This document shows, piece after piece, positions 25,472 to 40,399 of a stretch of 64,000 nucleotides of DNA (position 1 is its first letter; each line of letters opens with the position of its first letter). The position numbers were made by a program, and so were the translations under genes. Source of the stretch: Endomicrobiales bacterium (GTDB taxonomy: Bacteria; Elusimicrobiota; Endomicrobiia; Endomicrobiales; JAFGGC01); assembly GCA_016930715.1 (NCBI GenBank), contig JAFGGC010000002.1, forward strand, positions 62,001-126,000. The letters run 5' to 3'. The notes beneath the pieces were generated by a model that was given only the letters and a program-made list of their open reading frames with translations, had not been told where the DNA came from and made no database searches.

Positions 25472-25593
25472 CCCCGTTAGAGATACACGAACGGATACGT
25501 ATCAACGAACTGCGATATACGGGGCACGCGCTGCAATAAAGAAAAAACTCAAGAGATTACGTCCCGCCTACGGCGGGACTATCTCTAACGGGG
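25472..25593. mobile_element. MITE-like element with 14-bp terminal inverted repeats
   Basis: CCCCGTTAGAGATA (25472-25485) and TATCTCTAACGGGG (25580-25593) are perfect inverted ends of a 122-base element with no open reading frame. Next to the right end lies a perfect hairpin, GTCCCGCC-TAC-GGCGGGAC (25561-25579). I see no clear target duplication. It could be a non-autonomous element or a dispersed RNA-level repeat. It fills the gap between proC and the DUF167 gene. Confidence 0.6.
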
Positions 25594-37246: not shown

Positions 37247-38119
37247 ATGAAAAAATTGAAAATAGGTTTTCCAAAAGGCAGCCTGCAGGAATCGACAGCC
37301 GAGATATTCAAGAAGGCCGGCATAAGGATATATTGCTCCGACCGCTCGTATTTCCCGGCCTGCGACGATGAAGAACTTGAGATAATGATGGTGCGCTCGC
37401 AGGAGATGGCAAAATACGTCGAGGACGGCGTCTTCGACGCGGGGCTTACCGGATACGACTGGATATGCGAGTCCGGCGCCGACGTAAAAGAAGTCTGCGA
37501 GCTCATATACGCGAAATCGGGTTTCAGGCCGGTCAGGTGGGTGCTTGCCGCGCCGAAGGATTCGCGGATAAAGTCGGTAAAAGACCTCCGCGGGAAACGG
37601 ATAGCCACGGAACTGGTTAACTACGTCAGGAAATACCTGAAAAGCAGAAAGGTGAAAGCGGACGTCGAGTTTTCTTGGGGCGCGACTGAAGCGAAAGCGC
37701 CGGCGCTCGTCGACGCGATAGTGGAGCTCACGGAGACGGGTTCGTCCTTGAGGGCAAACAACCTCAAGATAGTCGAGGAAGTGCTGACTTCCACGACGAG
37801 GTTCATCGCCAACAAAAAGGCCTGGAACGACCCGTGGAAAAGGAAGAAGATAGAGAACATCGCCATACTCCTCAAGGGCGCGCTTGCCGCCGAAGGGATG
37901 GTAGGCCTGAAGATGAACGTTGCCGAAAAAAACCTGGAAAAAATAAAATCCATACTTCCGGCCTTGAAAAAGCCCACCGTATCAAGGCTTGACCTCAAGG
38001 GCTGGGTGGCGCTTGAAGTGATACTGGAGGAAAAGACGGTGAAGAAGATCCTTCCGGAGCTCAAGCGCGCCGGCGCCGAAGGCATAATCGAGTATCCGCT
38101 TAACAAAGTAATTTACTAA
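37247..38119 (+). CDS. hisG: ATP phosphoribosyltransferase, long form
   Basis: First enzyme of histidine synthesis, joining ATP and PRPP. The 290-residue length marks the HisG-L form with its own C-terminal regulatory domain (about 215-290) that binds histidine. Motifs are [10 protein letters not shown] near the start, the VPD-like [12 protein letters not shown] segment, and the PRPP-binding loop [14 protein letters not shown]. HisZ is not needed for the long form. No other his gene is in the window. It overlaps gltX by one base. Confidence 0.94.
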
Positions 38120-39612
38120 TGAGCGTTAGAGTCCGATTTGCACCATCACCTACCGGTTATTTGCATATCGGGGGAGCAAGGACAGCCCTGTATAACTGGC
38201 TTTTTGCCAGGCAGAAAAAGGGAACGTTCATACTGCGCATTGAGGACACCGATGAGGCGCGTTCGACGGACGAATCCGTCGGCGCCATACTTGAAAGCAT
38301 GAAATGGCTCGGCCTTGACTGGGACGAAGGACCGGAAATTCAATCTCGAAACACGAAACTCGAAACTCGAAGCAAGGGCAGTTTTGGGCCGTATTTTCAG
38401 ATGGAGGCGAACGAGCGGGGCATATACAAAAAATACGCCGAAAAGCTGGTATCCGAAGGCAGGGCCTACAAGTGCTACTGCACTCCCGGAGAAGTCGACG
38501 AGATGCGCAAGAAAGCGCAGGCAGAAAAGAAGGTGCCAAAATATGATGGAAGGTGCAGGGAACTGACGGCCGAACAGCGGAAAATAAAGGAAGCTGAAGG
38601 CAGGAAGGCGGTAGTTAGGCTCAAAGTGCCGAGCGAAGGAAAAATCGCGGTTGACGATGTCATACGCGGCCGGGTAGAGTTTGACAACTCGATGCTCGAT
38701 GATTTCGTGATAATCAAGGCTTCTGGTGTTCCGACGTACAACTTCGCCGTCGTAATCGACGACGTGAGGATGAAAATATCCCATGTCATCCGCGGCGACG
38801 ACCATCTTTCGAACACGCCGAAACAAATGCACATATACGACGCGCTCGGCTGGAGGGCGCCTGTATTCGCCCACATATCGATGATACTGGGCGCCGACGG
38901 CGCGCGCCTTTCGAAGCGTCACGGGCACACTTCCGTGCTCGAATACAAGGCGGATGGATACCTTCCAGAAGCATTGGTCAATTACCTGGCACTGCTTGGA
39001 TGGTCAACTGAGGATAGCCAGCAGCTGTTTGGCAAAGACGAACTGGTTTCCAAATTTAGTCTTGAAAGATGCGTGCCTAACGCCGCTGTCTTTGACCCGA
39101 AGAAGCTCGAATGGATGAACGGCGAATATATGAGAAAGATAGAACCGTCGAAACTGCCGGACGCCTTCTACAAATGGGCGGAAGAAACCGGCAGCGGCGA
39201 CAAGGTAAAGGGCTGGGACAGGGCGCTCGCGTCAAAAATAATAGAAATGGAGCGGGAAAAGTTCAGGCTTTTCAGCGAAGTGCCCGGACTTATTGACTTT
39301 TTCTTCGCCGATAGTGTAGAATATAAACCCGAAGCCGTCGATAAAACACTCAAGGCGCCGACGGCGAAGGTGGTCATTGAAGAAAGCGCCAAAAAACTCA
39401 AAGAACACGATGATTTTTCGGCCGAAGGGCTCGAAAAGTTCGCGAGAGGCCTGGCCGCCGAAAAAGGACTGGGGACGGGAAAGGTGTTTCATCCCATCAG
39501 GGTCGCGATCTCCGGCAAAACAACTGGCCCGAGCCTTTTTCATATGATGGAAATACTGGGTAAGGACAAAGTAATAGCGCGGCTCGAAGAATGCCTGAAA
39601 AAGTGTTTTTAA
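38119..39612 (+). CDS. gltX: Glutamyl-tRNA synthetase
   Basis: Charges tRNA-Glu. The 497-residue class I enzyme has [19 protein letters not shown] (HIGH motif) near 9, and RLSKRHG as KMSKS motif near 265. GluRS usually reads DEGP followed at once by GxYGPYxQSE; here about 12 extra residues (75-86, [12 protein letters not shown]) break that site, and the DNA is a CGAAAC/CGAAACT repeat like intergenic repeats in this genome. The enzyme is otherwise complete. A separate glnS gene is present, so this GluRS need not misacylate tRNA-Gln. Confidence 0.95.
38341..38373 (+). repeat. In-frame CGAAAC-type repeat inside gltX
   Basis: Three to four units of the pattern ctCGAAAC/CGAAACT (38345-38372) encode residues 75-86 of GltX, where homologues have no such residues. 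A similar run, read on the opposite strand, lies before the gene at 20971 (20921-20950: TCGAGATTCGAAATT and TTTCGAAATT). Confidence 0.55.
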
Positions 39613-39635: not shown

Positions 39636-39914
39636 ATGGAAAAGAACGTAAATTCGCATTTCGCGAGCATAGTGATGATGCTGGCTTCCGCCTGCTGGCA
39701 GCAGCTTGGCAAGATACCGAATCCGATGTCGGGAAAGACCGAAAAAGAGCTCCAGCACGCGCAGGTTACCATTGATCTCCTTGTGATGCTGCGCGATAAG
39801 ACAAAGGGGAACCTCACCAAGGACGAAGAAAGCCTGATCGCGAATACCATATCCGACCTTCAGCTTAATTACGCGGACGAAGCGGCAAAAGGCGGGGATG
39901 CTAAAGTCAACTGA
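39636..39914 (+). CDS. DUF1844 family protein
   Basis: A 92-residue helical protein of the DUF1844 (PF08899) family, function unknown. It shows the family features MMLASACWQQLGKIPNP, then AQVTIDLLVMLRDKTKGNL and a terminal ISDLQLNYADEA. It has no TM segment. A GTG three bases upstream (39633) is an alternative start. It follows gltX by 23 bases and precedes the tRNA-Gln locus. Confidence 0.9.
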   Translation: MEKNVNSHFASIVMMLASACWQQLGKIPNPMSGKTEKELQHAQVTIDLLVMLRDKTKGNLTKDEESLIANTISDLQLNYADEAAKGGDAKVN

Positions 39915-39954
39915 ATGTATATTGAAACATTCATTAAAAAAGAAACAATGTTTT

Positions 39955-40070
39955 AGAAAATAGCTTTACTAGTTAGTTGCCTCGTGGTGTAATGGTAACA
40001 CGGACGGCTCTGGACCGTCAATTTTAGGTTCAAATCCTAACGAGGCAGGTTTCTTGTAAAGCTATTTTCT
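39955..40070. repeat. Perfect 15-bp inverted repeat enclosing tRNA-Gln
   Basis: AGAAAATAGCTTTAC (39955-39969) and GTAAAGCTATTTTCT (40056-40070) are exact reverse complements. The tRNA gene lies in the loop with 8 bases on its 5' side and 7 on its 3' side. In the precursor RNA the leader and trailer could form a 15-bp stem and bring both processing sites together. Confidence 0.85.
39978..40048 (+). tRNA. tRNA-Gln (anticodon CTG)
   Basis: A full cloverleaf of 71 bases: acceptor TGCCTCG/CGAGGCA, D stem GTGT/ACAC, anticodon stem GACGG/CCGTC with loop CTCTGGA (anticodon CTG at 40010-40012), a four-base variable region, T stem TTAGG/CCTAA with loop TTCAAAT, and discriminator G. It starts with T, typical for tRNA-Gln. 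CCA is not encoded. It decodes CAG and would be charged by GlnRS (gene at 46001). Confidence 0.96.
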
Positions 40071-40083
40071 ATTAGGAGTGGTG

Positions 40084-40117
40084 CCCGCCTCATCGGCGGG
40101 TCAGCCGACGAGGCTGA
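40084..40117. repeat. GC-rich palindrome in the 5' part of the tRNA-Gln copy
   Basis: CCCGCC (40084-40089) pairs with GGCGGG (40095-40100). Alternatively GCCTCATCGGC (40087-40097) pairs with GCCGACGAGGC (40104-40114) with one mismatch. It belongs to the CCCGCC/GGCGGG hairpin family of this window. Confidence 0.6.
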
Positions 40118-40152
40118 TAATGGTAACACGGACGGCTCTGGACCGTCAATTT

Positions 40153-40302
40153 GTTTGGAAGGTTTCCGCCCACGCAAGTCATCCCGCAAAAAGGCGCAGC
40201 TATTCGCTGCAAATGCGGGATTGCTTTGGCGGACCAGCCGAAGTTGTTTCGCAAATACAGCGAATAGCTGTGGTTATTTGCGAAACGGTTAACGCAGGCT
40301 GG
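40153..40302. repeat. 150-base insertion with three hairpins
   Basis: Three successive stems: ATCCCGCA/TGCGGGAT (40181-40188, 40214-40221) with inner GCAGC/GCTGC; CTTTGGC/GCCGAAG (40224-40230, 40237-40243); and GTTTCGCAAATA/TATTTGCGAAAC (40246-40257, 40275-40286) with inner CAGC/GCTG. The apical loops of the first and third are TATTC and GAATA, which are complementary, so the two could form a kissing pair. It splits the tRNA-Gln copy at the T arm. Confidence 0.6.
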
Positions 40303-40399
40303 CAAATCCTAACGAGGCAGCCAGCTAAGCAGGCAAAGCAGCGGGAAACGGGCCCTGAAAACGAGCCTTTTTTGTTTAAAAGTATTTTTAAATAAAATG

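Follow-up and report, generated by a model that had tools for sequence, protein, structure and literature searches.

Perfect inverted repeat around a tRNA-Gln gene in an Endomicrobiales bacterium: a probable palindrome scar among remodelled tRNA loci

Our analysis shows that a tRNA-Gln(CTG) gene of an Endomicrobiales bacterium is enclosed in a perfect 16-bp inverted repeat. The repeat is probably a scar at the DNA level, left by fold-back or by the insertion of a palindrome, in a gene whose transcript can also pair. We consider such a DNA scar the most likely explanation, ahead of a conserved processing of tRNA-Gln. This reading is based on a broken copy of the same gene next door, on enclosed and nested tRNAs elsewhere, and on the absence of arms at other tRNA-Gln genes.

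The gene is the only tRNA gene in the window (the whole stretch of 64,000 nucleotides that we analysed), and Rfam finds nothing else there. It follows gltX and a DUF1844 gene and is itself followed by a cold-shock gene (Table 1). The nearest named relatives of gltX are mostly Elusimicrobia, with one Endomicrobium among them; the assembly comprises 2.3 Mb in 45 contigs. The initial annotation had described a repeat with arms of 15 bp, which is real and one pair longer, and its count of 8 and 7 bases between arms and gene is correct (the 7 nt follow the discriminator base). If the discriminator is included, 8 unpaired nt lie on each side of the tRNA, and because of this equal spacing the acceptor stem, the spacers and the arms form one collinear series. 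Transcription starting about 7 nt past the weak promoter-like site would make the first base of the 5′ arm the first base transcribed. The arm sequence occurs nowhere else in the genome at up to one mismatch. We also considered the arm as a dispersed repeat and rejected this, since there is one copy pair only and a match at two mismatches is no better than the reversed control. The window holds a further perfect inverted repeat, of 14 bp (CCCCGTTAGAGATA) with a 94-nt loop, at 25472–25593.

Table 1. Features of the tRNA-Gln locus, in window coordinates.
Feature	Position	Strand	Basis
gltX, glutamyl-tRNA synthetase	38119..39612	+	Pfam PF00749, PF19269
DUF1844 gene, directly upstream of tRNA-Gln	39636..39914	+	Pfam PF08899
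Promoter-like TTGAAA-16-AACAAT	39922..39949	+	Weak match
5′ arm TAGAAAATAGCTTTAC	39954..39969	+	Read from sequence
5′ spacer TAGTTAGT, unpaired; tRNA leader beside expected RNase P site	39970..39977	+	
Intact tRNA-Gln, anticodon CTG, no encoded CCA	39978..40048	+	ARAGORN; Rfam RF00005, 63.5 bits
3′ spacer GTTTCTT, unpaired	40049..40055	+	
3′ arm GTAAAGCTATTTTCTA, exact reverse complement of 5′ arm	40056..40071	+	Read from sequence
Hairpin-forming insert, stems CCCGCCTCATCGGCGGG and TCAGCCGACGAGGCTGA, in place of the 5′ part of the broken copy	40086..40117	+	Read directly, folded
Broken tRNA-Gln, piece 1 (tRNA nt 13–47), 35/35 identical to intact gene	40118..40152	+	
150-nt palindromic insert in T-arm of broken tRNA-Gln	40153..40302	+	
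Broken tRNA-Gln, piece 2 (T-loop to discriminator), 18/18 identical	40303..40320	+	

A helix of this length is unexpected by chance. When flanks are paired crosswise between the different tRNAs of this genome, none of the 992–1122 pairs reaches 16 bp and the best reaches 12. First-order Markov flanks give P = 0.003 for at least 10 bp and P = 0.00025 for at least 12 bp; several of our tests were picked after seeing the data, and the nulls of those tests exclude chance without counting the patterns inspected. A coincidental match between A+T-rich flanks is thus a very improbable origin of the arms. It could be said in its favour that about 35 tRNAs were inspected in the genome and that 16 bp is reached once among 20,000 Markov-shuffled flank pairs too, as the maximum of that set; against it, all mismatched flank pairs of the genome itself stay at or below 12 bp, and two more of its tRNAs are enclosed at 10 bp or more. 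Even less credible is a reading of the arms as an intrinsic terminator, or as some other hairpin that spans the gene by accident. The 3′ arm is A+T-rich, but no T-run follows it, a terminator scan reports nothing there, and the loop would be an entire tRNA. Folding the region yields −51 kcal/mol; shuffled sequences give −27.9 (sd 3.3), so that z = −6.9, with the tRNA itself included in the fold. If one transcript holds both arms, a 16-bp leader–trailer helix is predicted; the arms by themselves give −19.2 kcal/mol. The predicted fold keeps the cloverleaf inside this helix and leaves the cleavage sites in an unpaired 8×8 loop. The earlier proposal that leader and trailer are able to pair is therefore borne out in the predicted fold.

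What changed our reading of the inverted repeat is a second, broken tRNA-Gln copy downstream, which the initial annotation does not contain. It begins 69 nt past the intact gene. Palindromic inserts interrupt it, one in place of its 5′ part and one in its T-arm. Part of the longer insert is a dispersed repeat, with stretches of 85%, 79% and 74% identity on contigs C29, C23 and C41. The 3′ arm of the inverted repeat lies 10 nt ahead of TGCC, a possible start of the broken copy. An inverted second leader was tried as the source of the 3′ arm and set aside, because so short a match is not reliable.

The arms appear to be restricted to this gene among its counterparts. We fetched 28 tRNA-Gln(CTG) genes of the phylum, and none has flanking arms of at least 9 bp; reading the syntenic genes of loci L009 and L010, which share the order gltX–DUF1844–tRNA-Gln (L008 has DUF1844–tRNA-Gln), likewise shows none. 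A processing device specific to tRNA-Gln, one of the options raised by the initial annotation, is not supported: all 30 of the other Elusimicrobiota tRNA-Gln(CTG) genes that we tested lack such arms. The outcome that the initial annotation had named as refuting, relatives that have the tRNA but no complementary flanks, is thus what we observe at 28 of 28 genes and at L009 and L010. The 59 nearest genomes include none of the same family, and flanks at the level of the order are too diverged to align. We also asked about leader–trailer pairing in general. Within this genome, duplexes between 25-nt flanks are stronger than permuted ones (p = 0.001), an excess for which a few outliers account, tRNA-Gln(CTG) and tRNA-Arg(ACG) above all. 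We see no such excess in the genomes G002, G003, G004 and G006 or in the control set, which is small and taken from gltX neighbourhoods. General pairing of these tRNAs was rejected because the signal consists of outliers.

Other tRNAs are enclosed as well. In the same genome (G000), tRNA-Arg(ACG) lies in 12-bp arms with spacers of 2 and 1 nt and tRNA-Pro(TGG) in 10-bp arms. Arms of at least 10 bp are thus present at three of 33 surveyed tRNAs, compared with 0.2–0.3% of mismatched flank pairs. In the relative G001, 10-bp arms surround tRNA-Arg(ACG) (CCCCGCATAA) and tRNA-Arg(TCG) (CCCCGCACAA), and these two sets differ by a compensatory change from T:A to C:G on both sides. Compensatory differences are seen at the tRNA-Arg genes of G000 and G001 only, a small sample. 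The motif beside the tRNA-Arg arms (GGAGTTTA plus a palindrome) recurs as short hairpins without a tRNA in broken tRNA-Pro and tRNA-Leu copies. Two longer cases, perfect arms of 31 bp at tRNA-Gly(TCC) of G007 (null up to 29 bp) and arms of 19 bp at tRNA-Phe of G001 (null up to 18 bp), are weaker evidence because their arms are low-complexity repeats. The tRNA-Gly(TCC) gene belongs to a tRNA cluster (L329, G007:C135) in which every spacer carries a heptamer-like repeat hairpin, hence its enclosure.

At several loci an intact tRNA lies between pieces of a broken tRNA of its own isotype, which follow one another in gene order. The outer pieces around tRNA-Arg(ACG) of G000 comprise tRNA nt 14–21 and 26–34 upstream and nt 38–48 and 60–76 downstream, which places the break exactly at the anticodon. 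The chain scores 45, and the maximum for other isotypes, our null, is 26; the arms lie within the anticodon loop of the outer broken tRNA-Arg. A similar arrangement is found at tRNA-Pro(TGG) of G000, at tRNA-Arg(ACG), tRNA-Arg(TCG) and tRNA-Thr(CGT) of G001, and at tRNA-Glu(CTC) of G004. At L269 (G000) and at L271, L278 and L247 (G001), tRNA-Arg or tRNA-Thr is nested at the anticodon loop of its own isotype with palindromic junctions. With intact tRNAs masked, chains above 99% of the null occur at 9 of 33 tRNAs in G000, 7 of 33 in G001, 4 of 30 in G002 and 7 of 34 in G004; none occur in G003, G006 or G007, and the control set has two in 38, both marginal. These surveys cover fetched loci and cut contigs of draft genomes (G001, G002, G006 and G007 in part), in which repeats at contig ends conceal copies. 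A looser count of partial tRNA copies, 15 of 33 in G000, is superseded by the masked test. Single fragments above threshold mostly start at or near tRNA nt 1 when they lie upstream and mostly end at or near the tRNA 3′ end when they lie downstream; tRNA-Ser(GGA), tRNA-Val(TAC) and the tRNA-Gln of the window are exceptions. The broken copies are without some of their parts, and every one that we examined has an intact copy beside it. In the open-access literature that we searched, nested or exploded tRNAs in Elusimicrobiota are undescribed, and this architecture is a more novel part of our results than the inverted repeat.

The broken copies contain hairpin elements. The element E1 consists of two hairpins and often sits in the D-loop. 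For ten copies, which we picked by hand at loci recognised by similarity, 98.2% of cells pair and 10 of the 17 pairs have changed on both sides; covariation scores 0.43, and slid partners score 0.06 at most. Of 294 genomes in the phylum, 32 have matches to a model of E1; several have 17–18, with 18 as the largest number that was scored. A tRNA lies within 400 nt at 18 of 30 sampled loci, some of which overlap the loci used to build the model; about 2% would be expected by chance, as estimated from tRNA numbers and genome size. Loci with E1 include L008, L010, L046, L049, L054, L298 and L300, among others. A comparison of E1 with Rfam returns no family at E ≤ 1. A likeness between E1 and RNase P RNA was considered, but Rfam does not support it; a search for RNase P gives sub-threshold matches only. 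RNase P RNA itself appears only below the Rfam cut-off in G001, G002, G004 and G006 (345–465 nt where long) and is not found in G000, and in these genomes it is possibly divergent, insert-bearing or missing from the assembly. A different element, E2, sits in the T-loops of downstream tRNA copies, and its left end is the reverse complement of the T-arm of that tRNA. E2 is found at L014, L016, L041, L156, L173, L177, L187, L188, L217 and L241, sometimes in tandem with the trailer.

Y1 transposase genes are present in six of ten genomes that carry E1 and in none of ten that do not. We nevertheless rejected the Y1 transposase as the mobiliser: nine of ten Y1 flanking regions are without E1, E2 and E3, and the tenth has one E1-like match at its far end. 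E1 thus differs from RAYT-associated elements in that the Y1 (RAYT) transposase is not flanked by it. The one Y1 gene that we inspected closely, that of L367 (G000:C28), is flanked by different palindromes, TAGGGACAGCGCCTA, and the same palindrome also makes 21-bp arms near a tRNA-Met (L016:783–905).

The molecular mechanism that we infer would begin with a palindrome-forming event that placed the same 16-nt segment on both sides of the tRNA, once inverted. Either fold-back (template-switch) DNA synthesis would have copied the segment, or a palindromic repeat would have been inserted with the tRNA in its loop. The suggestion of the initial annotation that the repeat might record an insertion of the tRNA into a palindrome comes close to this reading. 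In the wider remodelling of tRNA loci within this bacterial order, a tRNA gene would be duplicated and hairpin elements would enter the loops of one copy, with the other copy staying intact and sometimes coming to be nested inside the broken one. By analogy with this wider pattern, the tRNA-Gln arms probably stem from the same process. Pairing of leader and trailer in the transcript would be a tolerated by-product, whether or not it slows or guides processing.

There are arguments against a scar. No other place in the genome has the tRNA-Gln arms, none of the hairpin elements that we found matches them, and we found no intermediate state. The 16 bp are perfect, yet most of the inner 8 nt do not match. 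Such a pattern would be expected if pairing is maintained, but not after a simple fold-back anchored on the acceptor stem. The compensatory T:A/C:G difference between the tRNA-Arg arms is also explicable by selection for pairing. Perfect arms around a mismatched 8×8 loop together with this change are the strongest counter-argument to a scar, as they also fit a helix under selection. Template switching has been reported to perfect the arms of inverted repeats as well, in one yeast case from 5 to 16 bp (PMC8604942), and hence covariation alone would not decide.

The arms could have been selected as a leader–trailer helix of the precursor, which would join the RNase P and 3′-processing sites, protect the ends or serve as a target of RNase III. 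We consider this rather unlikely. The perfect arms, the collinear geometry and the unpaired cleavage sites would suit such a helix, as would a promoter-like site that would begin the transcript at the 5′ arm, the compensatory change at tRNA-Arg, and the recurrence of enclosure at Arg-ACG, Arg-TCG and Gly-TCC with unrelated sequences and short spacers. But every other tRNA-Gln(CTG) gene tested lacks the arms, duplex energies beat permuted controls through a few outliers only, and the low-complexity repeats that make the tRNA-Gly(TCC) arms of G007 are present in the neighbouring spacers too. Still less likely is a mobile unit, that is, a palindromic element carrying an intact tRNA that inserts into tRNA loops, so that insertion is not lethal. 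It would account for the palindromic junctions of tRNA-Arg(ACG), tRNA-Arg(TCG) and tRNA-Thr(CGT) near broken anticodon loops of the same isotype, and it agrees with E1 being multicopy and close to tRNAs at most of the sampled loci. However, a nested tRNA and the broken tRNA around it have the same isotype, as one would sooner expect from local duplication than from the transposition of a single cargo. The unit at tRNA-Gln is single and lies outside any broken tRNA, and the elements are not tied to any mobilising enzyme (the Y1 flanks that we checked have no adjoining E1, E2 or E3).

Few parts of a bacterial genome are expected to be as stable as its tRNA genes. At many of the tRNA loci described here, fragments of the gene itself lie in order together with hairpin inserts, and at some of them inverted repeats enclose the intact copy. 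It is conceivable, if somewhat doubtful, that the repeat around tRNA-Gln is one product of an undescribed process in some Elusimicrobiota, in which hairpin elements open tRNA loops and an intact tRNA is kept or rebuilt inside and ends up enclosed by an inverted repeat. Such a process could be either a tRNA-directed family of mobile hairpins or a hairpin-driven mutational process. If confirmed, these loci would provide natural material on the origin and persistence of palindromes. They would also allow us to ask how cells keep essential tRNAs despite the break-up of their genes, and whether tRNA precursors tolerate or use leader–trailer pairing. In practice, the tRNA annotation of such genomes may miss or miscount broken copies.

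Several known systems come close to parts of this picture. The leader–trailer helices of bacterial 16S and 23S rRNA likewise consist of complementary sequences on either side of a stable RNA that pair in the precursor; they are conserved and covarying, are cut by RNase III and are needed for 30S formation (PMC10250234), whereas the arms described here belong to one tRNA-Gln only and their pairing is a predicted one. Short inverted repeats made by template switching have the same perfect, identical arms with one inverted that we find at tRNA-Gln. Their spacers are mostly short (PMC8604942, PMC7202029), whereas here a 71-nt tRNA plus 15 nt separate the arms. E1 resembles the REP/RPE-type repeats (GTAG- and CGTC-tagged; PMC3733652) in being a multicopy palindrome with covarying stems, as these are short, intergenic and multicopy. 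It differs from them in its two hairpins, its GA-rich loops and the tRNA neighbours of many copies, and neither a GTAG or CGTC tag nor an adjacent transposase was seen for it. Finally, the split, intron-containing and permuted tRNAs of archaea and algae are also interrupted at loops, including the anticodon loop (reviewed in PMC3978253). In contrast to these disrupted tRNAs, the loci described here keep an intact tRNA as well, and their broken copy has inserts in several loops and has lost some of its pieces.
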